A stretch of 57,759 nt of DNA, from IMG/VR virus record IMGVR_UViG_3300046011_007876, positions 1 to 57,759 of that record; one strand, written 5' to 3'. This document shows positions 24,558 through 54,732 of this stretch, in pieces (the stretch's first letter is position 1; each line of letters begins with the position of its first letter). Made by a program: the position numbers and the translations under genes. The DNA is from a virus. Below the pieces are notes generated by a model that was given only the letters and a program-made list of their open reading frames with translations, had not been told where the DNA came from and ran no database searches.

Positions 24558-25138
24558 TATTGTGGGGTTTTCTTTCTTACTGCAATAACATTAGACCATT
24601 TAGATTTAAATTTTTCATAAAATTTTCTTAAATTAACCAAAAATTCTAAAAACTCATCATCAATTTTTGTCATAGTACCATTGATATAGATACCATTTTT
24701 TTCACCTATAGTATAGAAAAATTCAATGTCTAACTCTGTAATTTTTCCGGACCATTCAACATTATTTTCATATAAATTAAGTTTATTAAAATCAACAAGT
24801 TCTGAAACTTCTTTAATAAACTCATCCATCGTCTCTTGAAAAGCTTTTTTATCTTCTGTCGTTAATTGTGTTTTTTGTTTGTCCTCTCCGTGAATAACAA
24901 TAATACCTCCGGATATTCTATATGCTCTTTTTTTGTCGGTTTTTTTTACAACCTCATCTTTATCTGAATCTGCGGTTTCATATTCTTTTTCTTCAATATT
25001 CGGTAAAACATTATCTTCTTGTTCAAGTAAAATACCATAAGATTTTTTTATATTAAATTCTACTTGTTCATCAATTCTATTAGTTAAAACACTCCTTGAT
25101 GCTTTTAATAAATTTTTAATTTCATCATATCTATTCAT
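24557..25138 (-). CDS. Hypothetical protein, 193 aa
   Basis: An N-terminal helical stretch (MNRYDEIKNLLKASRSVLTN, then KKSYGILLEQED) is followed by an acidic linker and a compact domain starting YRISGGIIVIHGE and ending WSNVIAVRKKTP. I believe relatives occur beside amidases in other Bacteroidota phages. The ILLE within the N-terminal region resembles an (I/L)xE protease site but is not at the extreme end. It overlaps the amidase by 8 nt. Confidence 0.65.
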   Translation of the reverse strand: MNRYDEIKNLLKASRSVLTNRIDEQVEFNIKKSYGILLEQEDNVLPNIEEKEYETADSDKDEVVKKTDKKRAYRISGGIIVIHGEDKQKTQLTTEDKKAFQETMDEFIKEVSELVDFNKLNLYENNVEWSGKITELDIEFFYTIGEKNGIYINGTMTKIDDEFLEFLVNLRKFYEKFKSKWSNVIAVRKKTPQ

Positions 25139-40682: not shown

Positions 40683-40904
40683 ATGCCAACAGATATTACA
40701 ATTTCATCATTAAATGGTTCTTCACCTTTTGATGTTTATGTGTGTGACACCGGAATGACAACTTGTATTTATGTTAATACAATTAATAGTGGTGATGTAC
40801 CATATGTTTTTGAAATACCTTCTGTTTTTTCGACATTAAATAATTTTACGGTAAAGGTTGTTGATGATAACGACTGTATTGTAACATCAAATTTAGTAGT
40901 ATAA
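40683..40904 (+). CDS. Small tail-associated protein, paralogue of 48127-48354 (73 aa)
   Basis: [40 protein letters not shown] and a beta-rich end align by eye with the 75-aa protein at 48127-48354: both have (I/L)..L.G.S.PFDVY.CD..G..C..V.T.N...P and end in a C-containing strand. It is followed by a Thr/Pro-repeat protein with an overlapping start (TAATG). A structural accessory of the tail is likely. Confidence 0.7.
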
Positions 40905-41959
40905 TGCCTTGTAGTAGTGTATATTGTATAAGTGGGACTGTGACGTATGATGGAAATTATGGTATCGCCCCAACCACACATAATGGTTATGATTACTTTA
41001 CTGGTGATACATTACCAACATATTATATTTTTTCATCGATTACATCTAACTCTTGGTGTTTATCAACCGTATTAGACGGTCCTTGTTTATTGTTTGGTAA
41101 ATCACCTTGTTTAAGTTCTTGTCCAGATTTATGTGACGATTTTTTTGGTACCGGTCCTTGTCTTACACCAACCCCAACACCAACATCAGTTTGTGATATA
41201 GATTTTGATGCAATTTTTGATTGTGCGGTAACACCAACTCCAACACCAACACCAAGTGTTACACCAACAGTGACTCCAACACCAACACCAAGTCAGACAA
41301 ACCCTTGTGGTGGTGTTAGTATGGTTGTTAGTGCAATATCAATATCACCAACACCTACACCAACATTAAGTTTAACACCGACTCCAACACCTGAGATTAC
41401 AAGACCTTGTAATTTTACTGGTATTGTAAAATTTAACACTATTGATGATTTCTTGAGATGTGCAACATCAAAAAAATTCAGAGATTGTTCAAATGGATTT
41501 TTATTTCACACTAGTGGTGTTGTTTTGGACCCAATTGGTAATTTACCAACTGTCGGTGTTGTATATAGAACAAATATTAATGGTGATTCGGTTTGTGTTG
41601 TTTATGATGGTACTGTTGAAAATATAAGTGGTGCCGACGATGTAACTCTTTTAGAAACAATTGGTTCAGAATCAACCGGTTCTTGTTCTATTTGTGTACC
41701 AATTCCAAGTCAAACACCAACTCCAACACCAACAAACACACCAACTCCAACACCAACACCAAGTCCGCTAACTTGTTTTGAGTGTTTGGTAACAAATAAC
41801 GATCCTTTTGGTGATTATACTTTTGACTATAAAAATTGTAGTGGTGAATTTCAAAGTGTTTTAATAAATGCTCAAGGTTCAGAAACAATTTGTTGTTCTG
41901 AAATACCTTCATCAACATCAACATTTACAGTAACCCAAATTGGTAATTGTTTATTATAA
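40904..41959 (+). CDS. Thr/Pro-repeat tail or fibre protein, 351 aa
   Basis: Cys-rich globular segments alternate with TPTPTP tracts at residues 88-94, 110-132, 149-163 and 270-288. Segments such as [20 protein letters not shown] and [19 protein letters not shown] read as small domains. The Thr/Pro tracts resemble mucin-like linkers also present in the minus-strand tail proteins. It is a virion surface protein by analogy; it ends at a bidirectional terminator. Confidence 0.72.
41231..41299 (+). repeat. Thr/Pro-coding tandem repeat tract (ACACCA/ACTCCA units)
   Basis: Hexamer-like repeats encoding TPTPTPTP. Similar tracts lie at 41165-41185, 41348-41392 and 41711-41767. Such tracts can slip during replication. 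Confidence 0.7.
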
Positions 41960-42668: not shown

Positions 42669-45443
42669 TTAGAAGTCTAATTTAACAACAAACTGCTGAA
42701 TACCTTGTCTTAAAACTGGTGATTGTAACTTTGACATAACCATAATATCTTTATTATCATCAAGTAATGCAATTTCAGTAATATAAGACTTATTTCCTTT
42801 AGTCCAAGTTGGATTTGATGTGTTTTGGAATTCAGTAAAATTCAAATTAACTTTATAGTTCATTTCATAAATTGTTGCCTGAATATCTGTTTCAATTCCT
42901 CCATAGAAATAGTACTCGTCACCAAAATTTAAATCAGGACTTGTATTACCAATTGGTGTTAAATTAATATAATTGTTTAAATTATATGATGGTGCATTAT
43001 CATAAAGTTCTTTTGTAACAACAAATGTTGTTCCGGTAAGCGCTGCTTCAGTTATGTAACCATTTATTGTTTCACCACTTATTAAGTTTGTAAAATCAAT
43101 TACTTTCCATTTTGATGAATCTGGTCTTTGTCCTGTTGTTACTTTCTGAACAAGAATTTCTAGGTTTGTCGCATAAAACCCATTTGGCACATCGCAAATA
43201 ACTGGACATAAAGTTGTTGTTGTAGTTGTTGCATTTATTTTTAAAGGATAATAAACTGTTTCTTGTAAGTAAGGAATATCATTTGTTGACAACAATGTTG
43301 ATTCATTACACCAAATTAAACCGTTACCATCTTCTGTTGATATAATATTTAAATTTTCAGTTAAAATAAAACAAGTTTCTGATGGTGGTAACGTAGTTGT
43401 TGTTGTTGTTGGGTTAAATGTTGTTGTTGTTGTAGTTGGTATTGGTCCAGGTTGTATTAAACATTTAAATTCTGGTCCAAATCTAACCGCAACATTTTTA
43501 GATGTATCTGGATTACAATCATTATTATTACCAGATATTTTAGAGTAGTAATTTGAATGTAGTGAATTTGTAAACTCACCTTTGTTTGTTAGTCTATATG
43601 TAACAAACATAGTCTCATTTGATCCGGTAAGTACACCATCTATCGTTGTTGTTGCCACACCACAAGTATTTGGTGTAATTAACGATATTTGTGGTGCAGT
43701 CAATGTCCAGTTTCTATTTGACTTATACGACATTGCTGCAATAATTTCTTCATCATCAATAATTATTAATTTACTATCAGGAAATACTTTACCAATTCTA
43801 CTTGGTATTCCATTTGTATTTGCATGTGTGTCCCAAAGATGATAATATCTAATACCAGGTTGATTCATACCATCATTCTTTTTTGACTGAATATAATGTA
43901 CATCAAACAGATTAAGTCCTTCAAAATTTGGTGGGTCAACCCAGAATGTTTCACCAAAACAACACTCAGGATTCTTATGCCACATTAACCAAGGTATGTG
44001 TAATTTAAAGTTTCTTGCTTGTCCAGTTGTGTCCTGTGGATTTGATGGATTATATGGTTGTAATGCAAATTTTTCACCATAGAAAAAATCAATAGTTTGA
44101 TTTGTATAATGAATAATTGCAATTGCTTTTTGTTCTTCAGGTTTAACCTCAACTATTTCATCAAAAGAATTATAATAATAAACATAATTTGTATCAGTTT
44201 GTCCAGAACTTGAGTTATAACCAAAATATTCTTTTGTTCCAATATAATCAATTGATCCAAATTTATCATAACCTTCATATGTTGTTGGTCTTAGTCCAGC
44301 AGGATTTTCAGTCCAAGGAATATTCATATTCCAAACTTTAACATCAAATTGATCAATATCACAAACTGATTCAAAATTAATAACATCATCAGACCAATGT
44401 GGTCTTGGGGTAATACTATCATATAGTGTTGTCATATTTGGTGGATATACAATAGCTCTTGCATAACAATCAAATAATAAATTACTATAATTTGGCGTAC
44501 TTCTATCTAATGTAATTTCATTTTCACAAACAGCAACAATTTTATATGTTAATATTGGATAACAAGAATACATATTCATTTCACATGTCGCGTCCGGTAA
44601 TGGTGGACACGCTCTGCTTGGGGTTGGTGTTAAACAAGGTGTTGTAGATGGTGTCGGTGTTGGGGTTGGTGAAGCGCAAGGGTCAAAATTTGGTGTAACA
44701 CTTGGTGTTGGTGTTGGGGTTGACGAAGGTAATGGTGTACTATCACAATCGTCCCAAACTAAGAAAACATCGTCTTCTGTTAACACAAACTCATCAAGTT
44801 CTGTCATTATAATACAAGTTTCAATAACTGGTAAAGTAGAGGATGGTGTTGGGGTTGGGGTTGGTTGTGGTGGGTAATTAGAACAATTACAATTTGATTG
44901 GCCTTTACCATCATAATAAATCGTAATAATATCACCAACCGATGGTTCATTTACATTGTAAATGTCACAAGCATCATATATTAATTTTATTTTATTTGTT
45001 CCAACTAATGTTGACATATCAACAATAAAATTTGCTGTTGTAACATACTTTTTATTTGTTAATACTTTCCAATCAACTGTTGTTGCGGTTGTAATACCCC
45101 CAAAAAAACCTCTTAATGGTGCACGGTTAAATACCGGTTCAACAACAGAGTCCATAAATGGAATACCGTAAGTATTTCCAGAATCTCCATCAACGTAATA
45201 TGGATATTTTACACTTTGTCTATTTGATTGTGGAACACCAGATGAATTTTGGGTGTTGAATGGTGGTTCTAGAACAAAACTATTTGGTTGATTATATCCA
45301 TTTGGTGTTTTATCATATGAAACTTCACTATCACCAACCTGGAAATATGATATTTTAAAATTACCTTGTGATAATTTTTGTCTTCCTGTGTCAGTAACTC
45401 TTGTATTTACTAAACCTGATGTATTTTTAAGTATATAGCTCAT
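42669..45443 (-). CDS. Large tail/baseplate protein with Thr/Pro linkers, 924 aa
   Basis: MSYILKNTSGLVNTRVTDTG and NFKISYFQVGDSEVSYDKTP begin the protein in a way I associate with large Bacteroidota phage tail proteins. Thr/Pro linkers (about 191-279 and 666-684) surround a duplicated module, ETCIIMTELDEFVLTEDDVF and ETCFILTENLNIISTEDGNG. A third poly-Thr tract precedes a C-terminal domain ending VKLDF. Probably a baseplate or fibre component. Late-type motif 1 nt before the ATG. Confidence 0.7.
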   Translation of the reverse strand: MSYILKNTSGLVNTRVTDTGRQKLSQGNFKISYFQVGDSEVSYDKTPNGYNQPNSFVLEPPFNTQNSSGVPQSNRQSVKYPYYVDGDSGNTYGIPFMDSVVEPVFNRAPLRGFFGGITTATTVDWKVLTNKKYVTTANFIVDMSTLVGTNKIKLIYDACDIYNVNEPSVGDIITIYYDGKGQSNCNCSNYPPQPTPTPTPSSTLPVIETCIIMTELDEFVLTEDDVFLVWDDCDSTPLPSSTPTPTPSVTPNFDPCASPTPTPTPSTTPCLTPTPSRACPPLPDATCEMNMYSCYPILTYKIVAVCENEITLDRSTPNYSNLLFDCYARAIVYPPNMTTLYDSITPRPHWSDDVINFESVCDIDQFDVKVWNMNIPWTENPAGLRPTTYEGYDKFGSIDYIGTKEYFGYNSSSGQTDTNYVYYYNSFDEIVEVKPEEQKAIAIIHYTNQTIDFFYGEKFALQPYNPSNPQDTTGQARNFKLHIPWLMWHKNPECCFGETFWVDPPNFEGLNLFDVHYIQSKKNDGMNQPGIRYYHLWDTHANTNGIPSRIGKVFPDSKLIIIDDEEIIAAMSYKSNRNWTLTAPQISLITPNTCGVATTTIDGVLTGSNETMFVTYRLTNKGEFTNSLHSNYYSKISGNNNDCNPDTSKNVAVRFGPEFKCLIQPGPIPTTTTTTFNPTTTTTTLPPSETCFILTENLNIISTEDGNGLIWCNESTLLSTNDIPYLQETVYYPLKINATTTTTTLCPVICDVPNGFYATNLEILVQKVTTGQRPDSSKWKVIDFTNLISGETINGYITEAALTGTTFVVTKELYDNAPSYNLNNYINLTPIGNTSPDLNFGDEYYFYGGIETDIQATIYEMNYKVNLNFTEFQNTSNPTWTKGNKSYITEIALLDDNKDIMVMSKLQSPVLRQGIQQFVVKLDF
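44607..44873 (-). repeat. Thr/Pro/Ser-coding repeat segment in the 924-aa gene
   Basis: GGTGTTGGTGTTGGGGTTGG-type repeats on the plus strand (Thr/Pro/Ser codons on the minus strand), interrupted by one short Asp-rich module. A poly-Thr tract of GTT repeats lies nearby at 43388-43440. Confidence 0.65.
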
Positions 45444-45476: not shown

Positions 45477-47084
45477 TTATATTCTACTATTAACAACTCC
45501 AACTTCTGCCGTTTGTTGTACTAAATAATCACAACACTCACAACCGTTTATTGATACATTATTCAATGAAATTGAATAATTTCTTGCTACCGAATAACAA
45601 GTTGGTAATGGTAAAATTGGTGTTATTAAATTATCTATTGTACCATTTAATGTTGATGAAGTTGACATTGTGATATTACCCCAAGTTTTAGTTGTATTTG
45701 TTGTATAAAAACTACCACCATTACAAACATTAAAGGATGTTGAATTTGTAATAACTGGTGTTGAGGGTAATATTGGTCCGCCATTTAATAATACATTTAA
45801 TCCGCCGTTATATGTTGCCGAAGTTGGGTTTGGTGCTACAGTAAATGTGCTCTGATAAACTAAATCAAAATTTATTGTTACTCCAGCAGGTAATGTTGGT
45901 GATATTGTAACATTAAATGTGTTACTAGTTCTATTTAGTGTTATTGTATATATTGTACTTGTGACTGTTGATGTTAAAGTAACTATTTGTGATTGTGTAT
46001 TATTTACAGAATCTTTAACTTTTATTACATAGCTACCAGCCGACAAATTATTAAATATTGGGTTTGTTTGGTAAGATATTCCAGTATTTTTTGAATATTC
46101 ATAAGGTGGTATTCCACCTATAGCTTGCACAACTATTGATCCGTTATTGGTACAAGTTGGTTCGTTTTTATTTACTGAAATAAATAATTGTGGTATTGAT
46201 GAACAACTACCCTCAACAACATTTACTTCAGCATTAATACCAAGTACATTCCAACCAACTAGTGGTGGTGAAACTGGATTGGGATTATAAATAGTATAAC
46301 TTGTTGTTCCAGAAACAAGCCATTCTTGTGTTGTTCCAGTATTCCAGTATATTAACTCATCACCACTACTTGATAACCAAGATGGTTTACCATTTAAAAT
46401 ACCATCATATATAAAATCAATTTGTATAACTTGTGGTAATTTACTATTATATATTTCTACAATCATACATAAATCCAAATATGAAGGTACTGGCGTTGTT
46501 GAAGTTGTGGTTGTGGTTGTCGATGGTGTTTCAGCTGTTAATACACAAGTTGACGTTAATAAGAAATCCCCATATGTATCTGTTACTGTTGCAGTGTATT
46601 CACCAACACCAAGATTTGATATTGTCGTTCCAACACTTCCATTGTTCCATAATATTTCATAAGGTGGTGTTCCACCAGTTATTACTAATGATACAACACC
46701 GTCAAATGTATTCGTAAAAGAGGGATCAATAGACTGACACTCAACACCCATTGGAAATATAGTAATTACATCACATTCATTAGTCGGTTCAACCGGTGTT
46801 GGTTGTACTGGGTTAAACGTTGTTGTTGTGGTTGTTACTGGAAAATATGTTGTGGTTGTAGTTGTTAGTGCGAGACAAATGCTATCCACACATCCACCAA
46901 GTAATGTTGTACTTGTAGGTAATCTAGTAGCACCATTAAAACTACTAATATCATTTGTACAAAAATTATAAATATTTCCAAAAGTAATTGGTATAAATTG
47001 TGTGATGTTATCACAATCAGTATATGATGCTAAACCAGTTACTTCAGCAGTAAATTCATAACAATTACAAGTAGAACTTCCCAT
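45477..47084 (-). CDS. Tail protein with SprB-like repeats and poly-Thr linkers, 535 aa
   Basis: A Cys-rich start (MGSSTCNCYEFTAEVTGLAS) leads to two poly-Thr tracts (about 74-92) and then to an SprB-like repeat at about 128-170 (GGTPPYEILWNNGSVGTTIS, NLGVGEYTATVTD). A second SprB-like unit lies at about 320-362 (GGIPPYEYSKN, NLSAGSYVIKVKD). A third Thr/Ser linker is at 186-200. SprB repeats belong to the flavobacterial gliding adhesin, so this is likely an adhesive tail protein. Late-type motif 3 nt upstream. Confidence 0.75.
   Translation of the reverse strand: MGSSTCNCYEFTAEVTGLASYTDCDNITQFIPITFGNIYNFCTNDISSFNGATRLPTSTTLLGGCVDSICLALTTTTTTYFPVTTTTTTFNPVQPTPVEPTNECDVITIFPMGVECQSIDPSFTNTFDGVVSLVITGGTPPYEILWNNGSVGTTISNLGVGEYTATVTDTYGDFLLTSTCVLTAETPSTTTTTTSTTPVPSYLDLCMIVEIYNSKLPQVIQIDFIYDGILNGKPSWLSSSGDELIYWNTGTTQEWLVSGTTSYTIYNPNPVSPPLVGWNVLGINAEVNVVEGSCSSIPQLFISVNKNEPTCTNNGSIVVQAIGGIPPYEYSKNTGISYQTNPIFNNLSAGSYVIKVKDSVNNTQSQIVTLTSTVTSTIYTITLNRTSNTFNVTISPTLPAGVTINFDLVYQSTFTVAPNPTSATYNGGLNVLLNGGPILPSTPVITNSTSFNVCNGGSFYTTNTTKTWGNITMSTSSTLNGTIDNLITPILPLPTCYSVARNYSISLNNVSINGCECCDYLVQQTAEVGVVNSRI
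46814..46865 (-). repeat. Poly-Thr coding repeats (GTT-rich on plus strand)
   Basis: Two runs of Thr codons separated by a short FPV-type spacer, residues about 74-90 of the 535-aa protein. Confidence 0.6.
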
Positions 47085-47096: not shown

Positions 47097-48074
47097 TCAT
47101 TTATTTGTTTTTTCAACAAATGATTTTATAACTTCAACATATTTTATTGTAGAACTTTTATTATCCACATAATCAAAATAATTATTATCTTCAATTATTT
47201 TTTGGATTGGGTCTACATTTATAAACTCACCCTTGTAAAATTTTGTCGTTTTTAAATCGTCAGTTACCCCAGCCATATGTAGTATTGGTTTTTTTTCGTA
47301 TATATCAATACTATCTGTTGCCCAAGAAAAATCTAATTCTTTTGTTATTTTAGTTTTATAACCACTTAACCATAAATTCCAAAGTAATGACCACATTTCT
47401 GCTGTCCAAAATTGTATTTGTCCTGGATTTATTGGGAATCTTTTTTGGTAATTTAACATTTGTCTATATAATGGTGTTGAGTCTTCATATATTTTTTCCC
47501 ACAATTTATAATTTGTATTTTTAATAATATATTGACCTCCACCGGAATTTTCTTGATTTTCTTTTATTTTTTCAACATTAATTCCAATAACATCGGCCAT
47601 TTCTTTTAATAATTGACCTTTTTCAGATGTTGGGTGTTGTTTTTCATACCTATTACAACAATCGATAATGTATTTATAACCGATATAACCTATTGTGTCC
47701 GACAAATAACAAACATCATCATTTAATAGTTCTTCAAATTTTGGTAATGTTCTAAATATAATATCAGCATCGTGAAGGAAAAAACATTTACCATTTTCTG
47801 GAAATTCTTCTAACCATTTTGAAATTAAATACGGTTTTATACTTGGTATATAACTTTTAATTTTTCTTTCATCTTTATACGTATGTACATTAATTCCATA
47901 ATTTTTTAACTCTATGGCACCTTCTGAAAGATTATTATTATTTATCGTTGAAAATATTGTATGGATTTTTTTTGGGTCAATTCCTTTTTCAATAAAGTTA
48001 TGAATATATAGTTTTGTTTGCCAATGAAAATAAGGAACATCTGGATGTGCTGTAACAAATATAATATCATTCAT
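47097..48074 (-). CDS. GT-A-type glycosyltransferase, 325 aa
   Basis: CFFLHDADIIFRTLPKFEEL contains the DxD metal-binding motif (D102-A-D104) typical of GT-A transferases; an N-terminal nucleotide-sugar part (MNDIIFVTAHPDVPYFHWQT), NSGGGQYIIKN and GQIQFWTAEMWSLLWNLWLS are consistent with an acceptor and donor pocket. The overall look recalls plant-type hydroxyproline or serine O-transferases, but I cannot place it firmly. It sits inside the tail operon between SprB/Thr-rich proteins, which points to glycosylation of tail proteins. Confidence 0.78.
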   Translation of the reverse strand: MNDIIFVTAHPDVPYFHWQTKLYIHNFIEKGIDPKKIHTIFSTINNNNLSEGAIELKNYGINVHTYKDERKIKSYIPSIKPYLISKWLEEFPENGKCFFLHDADIIFRTLPKFEELLNDDVCYLSDTIGYIGYKYIIDCCNRYEKQHPTSEKGQLLKEMADVIGINVEKIKENQENSGGGQYIIKNTNYKLWEKIYEDSTPLYRQMLNYQKRFPINPGQIQFWTAEMWSLLWNLWLSGYKTKITKELDFSWATDSIDIYEKKPILHMAGVTDDLKTTKFYKGEFINVDPIQKIIEDNNYFDYVDNKSSTIKYVEVIKSFVEKTNK

Positions 48075-48126: not shown

Positions 48127-48354
48127 TTAACTACAATATACTAATTCTTGGTAATCGCAGTTTATACAGTTTGATAATCGTATAACGACAGATGGATATG
48201 TATGAAATATTGGTGGTAATGGAATTATGATTGTTGGTGGTATGTTTGTATTTACCGTTGAAACTAAAATACAATTATTACCATAAGCATCACAACAATA
48301 AACATCAAATGGTGTTGACATTCCAGTAAGACCGGTTAACTCTATTTCTGTCAT
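48127..48354 (-). CDS. Small tail-associated protein, paralogue of 40683-40904 (75 aa)
   Basis: MTEIELTGLTGMSTPFDVYC and CDAYGNNCILVSTVNTNIPP match the 73-aa protein at 40683. The C-terminus has four Cys/Asn-rich positions (LSNCINCDYQELVYC). It is one base from the 1119-aa gene and next to the glycosyltransferase. Likely a tail accessory protein made in step with the large fibre gene. Confidence 0.7.
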   Translation of the reverse strand: MTEIELTGLTGMSTPFDVYCCDAYGNNCILVSTVNTNIPPTIIIPLPPIFHTYPSVVIRLSNCINCDYQELVYCS

Positions 48355-48355
48355 A

Positions 48356-51300
48356 TTATGCCGGTCCTCCGTCAGTTATTGTCCAGTTATTAGGACCAGA
48401 TGTTAAAGTGTTTCTTGCAACAGACGCGGCACTTGGGAATGCACTATATTGTGAATTTCCACCACTAAATATAACATTTGGTTGTACTGTTTGTGCTGCC
48501 CAACCAATTAATAAGTTATTATAATTTGTAACAGATAGTTGTACGTTATCAAACATATTATTCATACTGGTTACACTTGTAATGTCCCAAGTTCCTAAAT
48601 CTTGTTCAAACTGAACTGCATTACCAAACATACCATCCATTGACAATACATTTGATGTGTCCCAAACTGAAATATTCTGATTAAAAATATTACATCCATT
48701 AAACATATTATTCATATTTGTAACATTTGATGTGTCCCAAGAAACAATAGGTTGATTAAAGTTTTGACATAAACTAAACATACCTGACATATTAAACACA
48801 CTTGATGTATTCCAATTATCAATAGATGAACTACCACCATTATTAAATAATACACAACCTTCAAACATACTTCTTGTTGTTATTACACTTGATAAATCCC
48901 AAGAACTAAGATTATCATTAAGACTAGTGCATTTACCAAATGTTCTATAAAAAGATTTAACACTTGATACATCCCATAAACTAACATTATTTATTGTTGT
49001 TAAAGATTGACAAAAATTAAATGAGTCTTGCATATTTTGAACACCGGTTAAATCAAACACATCAAGTGTTGCCGATAAATCTAAAGCTCTACAAGCAAAG
49101 AAATTACCACCTTCATTTCCAATTCTAAATTGACCCCAAGATATTACATTTAATATTCTACCAGCATTATTACCATCAGGACTTGGTAATGGACTAGGTT
49201 GTTGGAATGACCAACCTTCTATTGTTCCAATAATTTCAACAACATAATTCGTATTAGCGCTTGGGTAAACGTGTCTTCTTTGTGGACTATTCCAGGTATT
49301 AATAACATCAGATGTTCCGTCACCCCAATAAACTGTAAAATTATAATTACCACCTAAAACTAAAGGTAGTTCAATTTGACTATTAAAATATGAATTCCAA
49401 GTTGTTTTAAAATTATATACCGGTGTTGGTGACGTTGACGGTGTTGGTGTATTTGTTGGTGTAACTGTTGGTGTTGGTGTGTTAGTAGGAGTATTTGTTG
49501 GTGTAACTGTAGGAGTTGGTGTAACTGTTGGTGTAACCGTAGGTGTTGGTGTTGGTGGTAAACCACAATAAACGCAAGAAATATCGTAATCAATTAAAAG
49601 ATTAATTGTAATTTTTGCATCAGATAATAAATTAACATTTTGTGGATTACAAGTTGATCCGGTTATAACACACGTATTAAAGATTTGTATTGTATTTTCA
49701 CTATAATTAACAATAACATCACCAATACCATTAAATGTTTTTAGTGTGTTTACAACAGTATCAACCCAAAGAACGTCAGTTGGGAAATCGTTTATTCCTA
49801 TTGATGAGTAAAAGTTAATCTGTTTTAATTCACCATCAACACTAACTTCCAATATAAATTCAGCAGAATTTACTTTACAGTTTGTATCATCAAATGTTAA
49901 ATCATAAAATCCTTCATTATACATTTGTGAAATTCCTCTTTTTCCTATAATATCAGTTTTTTGGAATGGTGAAGAACATATGTTAAATGTTTGATAATTT
50001 GAGACTTTATTTGTTCCGTTAAGTGTTATTGATTTAGAATAAATACAACCATTATCATCTGTTATTTGTAGTGTATATGTGTCGGCTGACAATCCAACTA
50101 AATTTGGTCCGGTTTGACTTCCCACATTTGAACTCCAGTTATATGTAAATGGTGGTTCTCCATAATAAATTAATGTGTCAATTTCACCATCATTACCATT
50201 TACTGGTTGAGTAATTGAAAAATCAAAGAAAACCCCATTTGATGGTGAAATACTAAAGTTTTCTGTTTGTGTACAACCATTTGAGTCTGTAACAGTTGCA
50301 ACATAATTACCAGAAGTCAAATTATTAAACGTTGTTTGTGGTGACGGTGGATATCCTGTTATTTGATAACTATATGGTAATGTACCACCAGAAGAAGCAA
50401 CAAGTTGTACCGAACCATTACTTAAACCACAAGTTGTTCCGGTTGTTGATGTTGTTAATGTAAATAAAACAACATTAGTTATTGTAATTGATGTTGTATA
50501 TGTACAAGTACCATCAGAAATCGTTAGTGTGTATGTATCTGATACTAAATTTGGGAATGTTTTTAAAACTGAATTTGTCGTATCAGAAGTTGTACCACCT
50601 AAAGAATCGGTTAGTGTATATGTGAAGGTACCGGATGGTACACCACTATTTAAAACAATACTTATAGAACCGTTATTATTATTACAAGTTGAATTTGTTG
50701 AATTTACAGAAACTATTGAGAATGAGTTTGGTGTTATAATACTAGTTGAGTTTACAAAACTACAAAGTCCAGAATCTTGTACAAATACTGTAAAATTACC
50801 AGAACATAAACCAGTAAATGTATATGATTGTGAAAATGTAACAATTGTTTGACCATTACTACCTGAATAATAATAAGGTGCGGTACCATTTGCAATTATA
50901 ACTTCAATTTCACCATCACAATTAAAACAAGTTGGTGGTGTTGATATAAAAGAACCAAAAGTCACCGGTGTAACATCAAAAACTTGTGCTATTTGTGTTA
51001 ATTGACAACCATTATTATCCGTTACCGTAACAGAATAATTTCCAGCTATTAAGTTTTCAATATATGATGTTGTTTCGCCATTTGACCAAATATAAGTAAA
51101 TGGTGGATTACCGGTTAGACCGGTAACATAAATTTTACCACTACCGGATGTTGACACACAATTTGCATTATCAACAACGTAAAACCCAAAATTAATTGGT
51201 GTTGAGTTATAAACAATACAAGATTCGGATCTACCAGTACATCCACCACCATCATCTGCAATCACATAGTAAGTTTCTGGTGAAAGTCCATTAAATACGT

Positions 51301-51715
51301 AATCATTAGTAACACCAATAGCAGAATCAATTAAATTATCATTAATATCGTATAAATAAAAATCAATTGGTCCATAAACGTGTTCTGTTGTTGCAGTCAA
51401 TGAACCATTTATATTTCCACAAGTTGTACCTGTTGTTTCTATTGAAACACAAGTTCCTGATGATATATATATTGGCCAAAGTAATGAATCTGGTGTTGGT
51501 ATTGTTGAATCTATAATCTCAACAAAGTAACTACCGGCTGGTAAATTATTAACGTAATAATCAGTTGTTGCGGCAGATGTTGGTAATAAACCACTAGATG
51601 AAATTTCAGTAACTGTCCAAGTTGGTGCATCACCAGTGATACTAAAAAAAACTTCACCAATACCAAGATTAGAACAATCCCCAGTTATAGAATAATCAAA
51701 TATGTTTATTGCCAT
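48356..51715 (-). CDS. Giant adhesin-like tail fibre: SprB repeats, Thr/Pro linker, PKD-like, DUF285 repeats (1119 aa)
   Basis: Residues about 1-560 hold roughly seven SprB-like repeats (for example NPPFTYIWSNGETTSYIENL, AGNYSVTVTDNNGC; SGNYVATVTDSNGC). A phage-type domain (GKRGISQMYNEGFYDL) follows. A Thr/Pro linker spans about 718-765, then a PKD-like domain (FTVYWGDGTSD, RRHVYPSANTNYVVEI), then DUF285-type repeats (VSSVKSFYRTFGKCTSLND, TSNVTNMNNMFNGCNIFNQ) and a C-terminal NNWTITDGG typical of Bacteroidota surface proteins. A receptor-binding fibre is the likely role. Confidence 0.82.
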   Translation of the reverse strand: MAINIFDYSITGDCSNLGIGEVFFSITGDAPTWTVTEISSSGLLPTSAATTDYYVNNLPAGSYFVEIIDSTIPTPDSLLWPIYISSGTCVSIETTGTTCGNINGSLTATTEHVYGPIDFYLYDINDNLIDSAIGVTNDYVFNGLSPETYYVIADDGGGCTGRSESCIVYNSTPINFGFYVVDNANCVSTSGSGKIYVTGLTGNPPFTYIWSNGETTSYIENLIAGNYSVTVTDNNGCQLTQIAQVFDVTPVTFGSFISTPPTCFNCDGEIEVIIANGTAPYYYSGSNGQTIVTFSQSYTFTGLCSGNFTVFVQDSGLCSFVNSTSIITPNSFSIVSVNSTNSTCNNNNGSISIVLNSGVPSGTFTYTLTDSLGGTTSDTTNSVLKTFPNLVSDTYTLTISDGTCTYTTSITITNVVLFTLTTSTTGTTCGLSNGSVQLVASSGGTLPYSYQITGYPPSPQTTFNNLTSGNYVATVTDSNGCTQTENFSISPSNGVFFDFSITQPVNGNDGEIDTLIYYGEPPFTYNWSSNVGSQTGPNLVGLSADTYTLQITDDNGCIYSKSITLNGTNKVSNYQTFNICSSPFQKTDIIGKRGISQMYNEGFYDLTFDDTNCKVNSAEFILEVSVDGELKQINFYSSIGINDFPTDVLWVDTVVNTLKTFNGIGDVIVNYSENTIQIFNTCVITGSTCNPQNVNLLSDAKITINLLIDYDISCVYCGLPPTPTPTVTPTVTPTPTVTPTNTPTNTPTPTVTPTNTPTPSTSPTPVYNFKTTWNSYFNSQIELPLVLGGNYNFTVYWGDGTSDVINTWNSPQRRHVYPSANTNYVVEIIGTIEGWSFQQPSPLPSPDGNNAGRILNVISWGQFRIGNEGGNFFACRALDLSATLDVFDLTGVQNMQDSFNFCQSLTTINNVSLWDVSSVKSFYRTFGKCTSLNDNLSSWDLSSVITTRSMFEGCVLFNNGGSSSIDNWNTSSVFNMSGMFSLCQNFNQPIVSWDTSNVTNMNNMFNGCNIFNQNISVWDTSNVLSMDGMFGNAVQFEQDLGTWDITSVTSMNNMFDNVQLSVTNYNNLLIGWAAQTVQPNVIFSGGNSQYSAFPSAASVARNTLTSGPNNWTITDGGPA
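49421..49558 (-). repeat. Thr/Pro-coding tandem repeat tract
   Basis: Repeated GGTGTNGG / GTAACTGT units encoding PTPTPTVTPT... between the adhesin half and the DUF285 half of the 1119-aa protein. Confidence 0.7.
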
Positions 51716-54700
51716 TAATCGTTACAAAAAATATCAAAGTTTATTCCCACGTTAAATTCAAAAATATTATCTTCACTTAGTGGAATACAATTGCTGTTAT
51801 ATATAATTACAGTTTCATCTGTTTCATTAATTATAAAACTCAATCCATAAACTTGTAGTTCTGGATTAATATTATTTAAAGCGTTTATCCAATCATTCGA
51901 TGTTGGGTAACTAATACCGTTTGCTGAATACCCATTACCATTAAAAAATGGGATACTTGTTAATAAACCACCATTTACTCTTAAATCAACATACCAGGTT
52001 GATTGAATTGAGTTTAAAATACAATCATTTGTTGGATCATATCCGTTATCATTTAAGTAAGTTGATATTACATTACTTAATACAACACCAAATGAATTAA
52101 CAGTTGGGTTTGATCCCCAAGGGTATAAAGGGCATTCGACTGCTTGAATTGGGCAATCGTATGGGAATAGTTGACCAATTAAAGAACAAGGTTTACAAGG
52201 AACCGGAATAATTTGACAACCTGATTGTCTTCTCCAAACAAATTTTTGTCTATGGAATATTGAGTTTTCATACTTCACTCCGGTATTCCATATTGTTGTC
52301 GCTGGAACCATTTGTTCAATTAATCTTATCCAATAGTCGCCTAAACCATGAACATAATCAATCATTGTTTGATATGTGAAATTATCATTTGGTACATTAA
52401 TTGCTTGTCCGGATTCTAAATATTTCCAATAAATTGATTGTAGCGTTGGGTACCCTCCTGTTTTACCATCAGTTATAAATTGTCTATTTCTAACATTTAT
52501 CATATTTCTCCAAAAAGTTTGAGCAAACTCAAAAAATGTTTTTTCTTTTGGTTTTGGCACAATTTCTGTCCAATCTATACCACCTCTTTGTGGGTATGGT
52601 GTATTTGGATTTGGGTCACAATATGTTGGTATAACATAATTTAATCCTTCGTTTGGTATTGGGTAATTATATGTTCTAGACATAACCCAAACATCATAAA
52701 CCAAACCTTGTGCTGGATTCATATGAATATCAACATTTTTAACATTTAATGTTAAATTATCTTCACCAACTTCATAGTATGCGTTAAAGTTACCATCAAA
52801 ACTTTGTCTTAAAAATGGTTCTTCATCTGTCCAACTTTTTTTATTATCAATAACTTTTCTTAATTTAAATCCTAATGTCATATAAGGAAACTGTCTATAT
52901 CTTTGTAGATATTGTTCCCCATAATTAAATGGTAGTAATGTTGTTTGGAAATTTGGGTTTGAACCAGTGAATACACTATTTGTGATATCAACTTTTTCAG
53001 GCATTCTATGTTGTGGTGTTGACTCAAACCAACCACCACCTATTTGATAATAGAAAGATTCGCTTTCTTGTGGCATGCTTGGGTAACCATATTCGTCAAT
53101 GGGATAATCTTCAAGAACAACATTTGCGTTTTCACTGATTGTTGTTGTTGTAAATCCAGTATACTGGTTACCCATTATTGAAAATATGTCTGTTGTATCT
53201 AAAACTGGTAATTCTTGTACATATGTTCCACCAGAAATTTGAGCATATTGTGTTTCAAACTGATTTAAATTTATTTTTTGGTCAGCAACATAAATATATT
53301 CATTAAATTCAATTAACGATTCTGGTGCGCCAATTAACCTTAATAATATTTCAATAGATTTTCTTGTACCTTTTGATTTAAATAGATATGCCGCATTTAA
53401 TATTAAATTTCTATAATATTGATAATTTAATTCTTCTGGTGTTTGACCAACACTAAGTCCACTAAAATTATTTGAACCAGTTGAAAATACGGAATCTAAT
53501 AGTTGTGTTTCAGTTATTGGTGAAATATTTGTTTTCCACCCTAATGTTTGGGCTAAATTTTTTAATAATTGGGATGGTATATCATTTTTTACTACATAAT
53601 TAACATTAGTCATATTTGGTAATGCTAAAATAAATTTCATACTTTCATCGAAACTTCTACCATATATTTGTAGAATTTTTTCCATTTTTTGATCATCGGT
53701 ATCAAATTCTTTAAATGCACCAGTTGTTAAAAATCTAGAAATTAAATTTGTTCTGTAACCGTCAAGACCTTCTGCAAATTCATTTAATTGTGTTAGATAT
53801 GAGTTAAAAGAAGGTGATGATATATCTAGATTCCAGGTACCGTTTTTTGGGAAAGTAACATTTTTATTTGTTAAATAATAGGATCCATCTTCATTTTGTT
53901 CAACACTAATAAATGTCGATGTATATTCAGGTGTTACATTTCTATTTAATAAAAATTGTTCTACTTGGTCAAAATTTTCATTAAAAACTTTGTTAACATA
54001 AAAATCAGTTGGTCGTATTATATAATATAAATAACTAATTTGTTGACCAGAAAATGGATTACCATCAACATACATTTTTAATGTTGTCGAATTTTCGTTT
54101 GTTGGTGTAAATGATGCAATATTGTATTTATTATCACCTAAAATCAAACAATATTTTTGATAATTTGTTGTGAAATTCCTTAATTCAGAAACTTTTAATT
54201 CTCTTAATTCTAAATTTCTTGTTGCATTTGTTGAGTATTCAATCTCGAACGGATTTTTTATGGCGCCGATTGGTATTTCAAAATAGGTTTCATTTTCAAT
54301 AGGGTCGTAAGAAATATTAATTGCAGATTCAGTCCTAGTAAAATTAAATAAAAATGGTGTTACTTCTAATGCGGCCGGAAAGTAATTAATTATGTTTGTT
54401 ATTGATGAAGATATTCTTTTAACAAGAGAACCATATAATGTAAAATTTGTTACTTGAGATAAGTCAAAATTAGGAAAAACTCTAAAGTTTTTAGCCTGGA
54501 TTAATCTAGATTCTTCAACACTTTTAATATTCATTGAGTCTAAACTCATTGGGTCTGAAAAAACACCTATGTTGAAAGTTCTATTTTGTTTTTCTGTTAT
54601 ACTTTCTGTAAACTCAAAATTACCTTGTGTAAAACCTCCTCCGTCAACTAGTTGAAACCCAACTAAATTATCGGAAAAAGTACCAGAACCAGATGCTGAT

Positions 54701-54732
54701 TGTGGTGGACAAGTATATTTTTTAATCGCCAT
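51715..54732 (-). CDS. Large baseplate/tail protein, 1005 aa
   Basis: MAIKKYTCPPQSASGSGTFS starts a mostly beta and helical structural protein. The segment AYLFKSKGTRKSIEILLRLI (GTRKSI...LLRLIGAPESL) resembles the helical core of phage tail protein I/baseplate proteins. YYYEVGEDNLT-like and GGYPTLQSIYWKYLESGQAI segments, and Cys-rich CKPCSLIGQLFPYDCPIQAV near the end, suggest several domains. Its ATG overlaps the stop of the gene upstream by one base, and it is followed by the giant fibre. Confidence 0.7.
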   Translation of the reverse strand: MAIKKYTCPPQSASGSGTFSDNLVGFQLVDGGGFTQGNFEFTESITEKQNRTFNIGVFSDPMSLDSMNIKSVEESRLIQAKNFRVFPNFDLSQVTNFTLYGSLVKRISSSITNIINYFPAALEVTPFLFNFTRTESAINISYDPIENETYFEIPIGAIKNPFEIEYSTNATRNLELRELKVSELRNFTTNYQKYCLILGDNKYNIASFTPTNENSTTLKMYVDGNPFSGQQISYLYYIIRPTDFYVNKVFNENFDQVEQFLLNRNVTPEYTSTFISVEQNEDGSYYLTNKNVTFPKNGTWNLDISSPSFNSYLTQLNEFAEGLDGYRTNLISRFLTTGAFKEFDTDDQKMEKILQIYGRSFDESMKFILALPNMTNVNYVVKNDIPSQLLKNLAQTLGWKTNISPITETQLLDSVFSTGSNNFSGLSVGQTPEELNYQYYRNLILNAAYLFKSKGTRKSIEILLRLIGAPESLIEFNEYIYVADQKINLNQFETQYAQISGGTYVQELPVLDTTDIFSIMGNQYTGFTTTTISENANVVLEDYPIDEYGYPSMPQESESFYYQIGGGWFESTPQHRMPEKVDITNSVFTGSNPNFQTTLLPFNYGEQYLQRYRQFPYMTLGFKLRKVIDNKKSWTDEEPFLRQSFDGNFNAYYEVGEDNLTLNVKNVDIHMNPAQGLVYDVWVMSRTYNYPIPNEGLNYVIPTYCDPNPNTPYPQRGGIDWTEIVPKPKEKTFFEFAQTFWRNMINVRNRQFITDGKTGGYPTLQSIYWKYLESGQAINVPNDNFTYQTMIDYVHGLGDYWIRLIEQMVPATTIWNTGVKYENSIFHRQKFVWRRQSGCQIIPVPCKPCSLIGQLFPYDCPIQAVECPLYPWGSNPTVNSFGVVLSNVISTYLNDNGYDPTNDCILNSIQSTWYVDLRVNGGLLTSIPFFNGNGYSANGISYPTSNDWINALNNINPELQVYGLSFIINETDETVIIYNSNCIPLSEDNIFEFNVGINFDIFCND

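Follow-up and report, generated by a model that had tools for sequence, protein, structure and literature searches.

Glycosylation of virion proteins has been described in mycobacteriophages. According to two articles (PMC12619734, PMC12363180), capsid and tail subunits are glycosylated in the mycobacteriophages Che8, Corndog and Myrna (Freeman et al., 2023, as cited there), phage-encoded glycosyltransferases modify the C-termini of the capsid and tail tube subunits, and this glycosylation reportedly shields the virions from antibodies. The enzyme considered here is encoded by a freshwater phage, in a 57,759-base IMG/VR virus record that is called the window below. It differs from the Che8 system both in enzyme family and in the putative acceptor signal: the whole Che8 record holds no relative of the enzyme, the Che8 capsid and tail proteins carry no poly-threonine, and the only words in that record coding for six threonines (T6) are two overlapping ACC repeats at 24762–24781. 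Poly-threonine tails of phage proteins are not described in the literature we covered, which did not extend to most subscription journals.

Enzymes of the CAZy GT8 type (glycogenin, LgtC, GlyE, Skp1 galactosyltransferase, LARGE1, UGGT) have the GT-A fold in common with the phage enzyme over 210–246 aligned residues, together with the DxD and HxxG motifs. On the other hand, sequence identity is only about 10%, the canonical KPW is not seen, and the Pfam GT8 profile (Glyco_transf_8) does not match the phage enzyme at E<=1 despite the GT8-like fold. Glycosyltransferases associated with RiPPs in Bacteroidota and Streptococcaceae belong to the same family as the phage enzyme; their genes adjoin those for LanB/LanC, C39 transporters and precursor peptides, or they carry PqqD domains. 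They differ from it in being cellular and fused to a second glycosyltransferase or to PqqD, and have no poly-threonine virion proteins nearby.

Family and fold of the enzyme

The open reading frame (ORF) at 47097–48074 on the minus strand is complete, starts with ATG and encodes 325 amino acids. It matches the PHROG_4417 profile over its full length (E 3.4e-70; protein residues 6–318, profile positions 3–290 of 293). This family is annotated as "unknown function", and no function is given to its members in the annotations seen; it takes in bIL285 Orf45, "prophage pi2 protein 34" and LP65 Orf49 (a fold match), and the window protein is a member. Searches of Pfam, NCBIfam and PDB sequences with the 325-residue protein returned nothing meaningful; matches to AAR2 and CAP-repeat entries of the PDB and to DUF2639 were short and low-scoring and were set aside. 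We propose that the protein is a putative O-glycosyltransferase acting on poly-threonine in virion proteins. In Bacillota, many versions of the enzyme are extended at the C-terminus by about 50–60 residues (YEVIESFRDLEDDKEYFEGDRFPKPANKKV...), a segment that belongs to no clear Pfam family (loci L115, L119–L123, L125, L127, L129–L131 and others).

An AlphaFold model computed with 37 diverse relatives as input reached a pLDDT of 95.1 and a pTM of 0.93, and comparison by Foldseek and VIA-align places it among GT-A glycosyltransferases of a GT8-like type (Z-scores: glycogenin 15.6, Skp1 galactosyltransferase 14.3, LgtC 14.2, UGGT 14.1, GlyE 13.8, LARGE1 13.5). The motif HDADIIF contains D102-A-D104 (codons 47763–47771, minus strand), both aspartates of which are invariant in the alignment of the 37 relatives. 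Towards the C-terminus H266 (codon 47277–47279, minus strand) and G269 form an invariant HxxG and K281 is also invariant, but the KPW spacing of HxxGxxKPW is absent. H266 occupies what we take to be the position at which GT8-like enzymes have their third metal ligand, and by analogy D102, D104, H266 and G269 may bind the metal and the nucleotide sugar. The preliminary description of this locus had guessed a GT-A transferase, which the model and the fold comparison bear out; the structure-based family assignment that it proposed has now been run and gives GT-A, closest to glycogenin and GT8. The likeness it saw to enzymes that glycosylate Pro/Ser-rich proteins holds only at the level of the GT8-like fold.

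Threonine runs in the window

Directly downstream of the enzyme, on the same strand, lie two ORFs that contain all six T6 runs of the window, and both are proposed substrates. The first (45477–47084) encodes a 535-residue tail-operon protein with SprB repeats (4.5e-9) and has two TTTTTT tracts (46848–46865, 46818–46835) and one STTTTTTSTT tract (46494–46523). The second (42669–45443) encodes a conserved 924-residue tail-operon protein with TTTTTT tracts at 43419–43436, 43392–43409 and 43212–43229; its structure model (pLDDT 37) was set aside. Three runs per ORF compare with 0.008 and 0.003 expected, and none of 20,000 shuffles reaches three. As the runs are encoded by mixed ACA, ACT, ACC and ACG codons, they are not a DNA microsatellite.

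A separate type of tract, the PTPTP/VTPTNTP linker, occurs in three ORFs of the window. The 924-residue protein has PTPTPT linkers at 44646–44864, which show no association with the enzyme. Upstream of the enzyme, a 1119-residue protein (48356–51715, minus strand) has a long PT/VT linker (49436–49555) and no T6 run, and by the covariation described below it is probably not an acceptor. It combines DUF285 repeats (1.6e-48) with SprB repeats in a tail-operon protein, and host surface adhesins have similar repeats. Between it and the enzyme lies a gene for a 75-residue protein of no family (48127–48354, minus strand), and further upstream a conserved 1005-residue protein (51715–54732, minus strand), baseplate-like by position, has neither a family match nor a T6 run. 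On the plus strand, a 351-residue protein rich in PT linkers (40904–41959) faces the tail operon and has equivalents in related loci. Thr/Pro/Ser tracts are thus indeed present in the neighbours, downstream (45477–47084, 42669–45443), upstream (48356–51715) and on the opposite strand (40904–41959). The earlier guess of a tail operon is backed by the conserved context and by relatives that adjoin annotated major tail and capsid genes. Searches by tblastn with the 1005- and 924-residue neighbours found no relative in isolates; therefore no isolate of the window clade is known here.

Covariation of threonine runs with the enzyme

Relatives of the enzyme are encoded in at least 254 candidate stretches of viral contigs, in 74 annotated phage records (Lactobacillus, Enterococcus, Staphylococcus, Lactococcus, Arcanobacterium, Chryseobacterium) and at 41 loci of bacterial genomes; a scan of viral contigs with the Staphylococcus SA2 protein gave no relative. 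Cultured phages with the gene include Lactococcus bIL285, from L. lactis IL1403, and Chryseobacterium phage MA9V-3. For the window clade, homologues of the 924-residue protein were fetched regardless of the enzyme, which yielded 61 with it and 16 without. Absence refers to the whole available sequence of these 16 records, which may be fragments. A T/S run of at least six residues is found in 56 of the 61 homologues with the enzyme and in none of the 16 without (Fisher p 1.5e-12, relatedness ignored). We suspected that the five enzyme-bearing exceptions might break this rule, but three of them carry T or T/S runs of 12–13 residues in the ORF adjoining the enzyme. Pure T6 in ORFs of at least 150 residues amounts to 0.155 per kb with the enzyme, and there is none in the 16 loci without. 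Across whole records, 148 T6-coding words in 1.50 Mb with the enzyme compare with 4 in 1.68 Mb without, a 41-fold difference (overlapping words scored separately). A sister pair illustrates the change: the enzyme-bearing L315 reads CLTQPYTPTTTTTTFNPTTTTTTIIP, and L285, without the enzyme, reads CLNYQEQPPIEDTC at the same place. In the tree of the clade at least four events fall on supported branches, and about 2.9 of the four supported pairs agree, the rest showing no difference; the phylogeny-aware sign test (p 0.25) is underpowered, the independent events being few.

PT linkers behave differently. They are present in 52 of 61 homologues with the enzyme and in 15 of 16 without, at 0.48 versus 0.47 per kb; they are as common without the enzyme as with it, and a Pro/Thr linker acceptor is therefore not supported. 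The "mucin-like" Thr/Pro/Ser tracts that the preliminary description took for the acceptor are not supported as such in this role; only poly-threonine covaries. In enzyme-bearing phages, both in the window clade and outside it, counts of pure T-runs drop from length three to four and then peak at six (143 runs of length six in the window clade, 97 in the other enzyme-bearing phages), and the window-clade relatives without the enzyme have no pure T-run above five. The peak suggests that the acceptor comprises about six threonines.

Two protein families of Bacillota phages provide further comparisons. Among 72 loci of phi13-type major tail proteins with enough downstream sequence, the tail protein has a poly-threonine C-terminus in 16 of 16 cases with the enzyme and in 0 of 56 without. 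The tree needs nine changes, at least four of them on supported branches; in all four supported pairs, tail and enzyme change together. Because these pairs are so few, the sign test stays below significance (p 0.125). Another ORF of the same loci, encoding the capsid (MCP) or connector, has T6 in 16 of 16 with the enzyme versus 1 of 56 without. The single exception (L155:2489) lacks the enzyme; its tail protein is tail-less, and T10 is still present on the connector. Its position in the tree, next to enzyme-bearing rows, fits a recent loss of the enzyme, of which the T10 may be a relic. In a Lactobacillus-type capsid family the tail is present on every intact copy with the enzyme and on none of the others, one of which (L252), counted as tail-less, ends at the contig end before the C-terminus. 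The odd one is a prophage-like contig (L241:4001–4848) in which capsid and enzyme genes are both frameshifted.

Outside the window clade the poly-threonine tails are C-terminal (e.g. STTTTTTTTTSA, TTTTTTKPTTTTTTTQA), in contrast to the internal T6 runs of the window clade, and are encoded by mixed Thr codons. They occur on unrelated proteins, namely phi13-type tail tube proteins (TIGR01603), capsids and connectors. Of 62 loci outside the window clade, 47 have a T/S run of at least seven residues in the gene just before the enzyme, compared with 0–15 at other positions; a secondary peak at −6/−5 corresponds to capsid and connector genes with the same tails. Among isolates, the enzyme gene comes immediately after the major tail protein in phiFL2A, follows it closely with one small ORF between in SA2 and TPWB06, and adjoins the preceding capsid gene in 9183 and bIL285. 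The tail protein of phage 9183 ends ATTTDPVTTTSTTRQ and has no pure T6, and no T6 run lies near the enzyme in loci L281 and L267.

Some loci show further features. The enzyme relatives of L090, L091, L092 and L102 form an off-pattern branch, lying beside a 410-residue protein with no T-run nearby in the available DNA. In SA2 (L084:9640–9924) the tail protein ends T8-P at CCC TAA, and a long Thr-rich tail follows in an ORF that overlaps it in the +1 frame, which looks as though some subunits received a poly-threonine extension through a +1 frameshift; TPWB06 (L086:7714–7920) has a similar overlapping ORF after the T9-P end of its tail protein. In Lactococcus bIL285 (L338:6900–7000), NDKTTTTTTRHD follows the TAA of the capsid gene in the same frame and may reflect either readthrough or a decayed former tail, and the tail protein orf50 ends in T9 (sequence TTTTTTTTTRHD).

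Non-phage relatives provide evidence independent of the virion proteins. Bacteroidota relatives adjoin a lantibiotic dehydratase (5e-101), LanC (6e-33), a C39 transporter and a class I lanthipeptide precursor; others in this phylum adjoin LanC-like genes and GG-leader peptides, and relatives in Streptococcus merionis and Cricetibacter carry at their C-terminus PqqD, a domain that binds peptides. These contexts indicate peptide acceptors.

Proposed mechanism and alternatives

In hundreds of distantly related phages, the presence of the enzyme thus tracks stretches of at least six threonines in proteins of the virion (tail, capsid). As would be expected of phage virion glycosylation in the general sense, the glycosyltransferase gene is linked to, and covaries with, a candidate acceptor sequence of the virion. 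These data strongly suggest that the phages in question use a portable threonine tag to glycosylate their own particles, and we consider it very probable that a cytoplasmic GT8-like GT-A enzyme glycosylates virion proteins of the phage that encodes it, at stretches of some six threonines or more. The enzyme would move a sugar from a nucleotide-sugar donor to the threonine hydroxyls, presumably before assembly of the particle; catalysis, sugar and O-linkage alike are inferred. In the window, the substrates would be the products of 45477–47084 and 42669–45443. The T6–T7 run may serve as a portable acceptor tag, inserted between domains in the window clade, whereas in Bacillota phages it sits at the C-terminal end of the connector and of the major capsid and tail tube proteins. 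The sugar-coated segments would probably face outward, and could shield or tune the particle with respect to proteases, hydration, adsorption or recognition. The earlier idea of a phage glycosylating its own tail proteins receives strong, if indirect, support from the co-occurrence across unrelated phages, but its acceptor has to be narrowed and its targets widened: tail-operon proteins do appear as candidates, as it had said of tail fibres, and in relatives so do the connector and the major proteins of capsid and tail tube.

Four other explanations were weighed against this reading. Decoration of all Thr/Pro/Ser tracts, PT linkers included, as first proposed, would suit the presence of PT tracts in the same operon and the fact that many eukaryotic mucin-type enzymes take such sequences; given that PT linkers are equally frequent with and without the enzyme and that poly-threonine tracks it, we regard this version as improbable. 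Physical linkage, by which poly-threonine runs and the gene would travel together without being substrate and enzyme, could draw on a distance between gene and tail that is often 10 nt or less. The runs also occur, however, at a distance of several genes, on the capsid and connector proteins of the same phages, lie inside conserved genes and not at a cassette edge, and are in excess across whole records, all of which makes mere co-inheritance very unlikely.

Glycosylation of host cell-wall or LPS sugars, leading to superinfection exclusion or receptor change, is well known of phage glycosyltransferases, and GT8 contains LPS enzymes such as LgtC, one of the fold matches. Yet the gene sits inside virion modules of phages of unrelated hosts, the non-phage relatives lie in peptide-modification clusters, and a host-surface target gives no account of the covariation of T-runs in virion proteins; this alternative, also named in the preliminary description, ranks as low as co-inheritance. 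Phage glycosyltransferases that act on modified DNA bases are common too, but a DNA or nucleotide acceptor would explain neither the position in virion modules nor the T-run covariation, and the PqqD fusion and lanthipeptide context indicate peptides, so that we give this possibility the least credence of all.

Based on the preferred reading, glycosylation of virion proteins at threonine runs, we are inclined to think, with some reserve, that this is a minimal portable system in which one cytoplasmic enzyme and a T6 tag would be enough for any tagged protein. In phages of Bacillota and Bacteroidota the tag would repeatedly have passed from one kind of protein to another (capsid, tail tube, connector, baseplate-region), and the enzyme would have a common ancestry with the peptide-modifying glycosyltransferases of lanthipeptide clusters. 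If glycosylation of threonine runs is true, an unannotated family found in hundreds of phages would gain a function and an acceptor signal, and virion self-glycosylation would be widespread and not a peculiarity of mycobacteriophages. T6 runs together with PHROG_4417 would then be a simple predictor of phages with glycosylated particles, which bears on the structure, stability and immune recognition of phages, and a cytoplasmic O-glycosylation tag that needs a single enzyme would also be of use in the laboratory.
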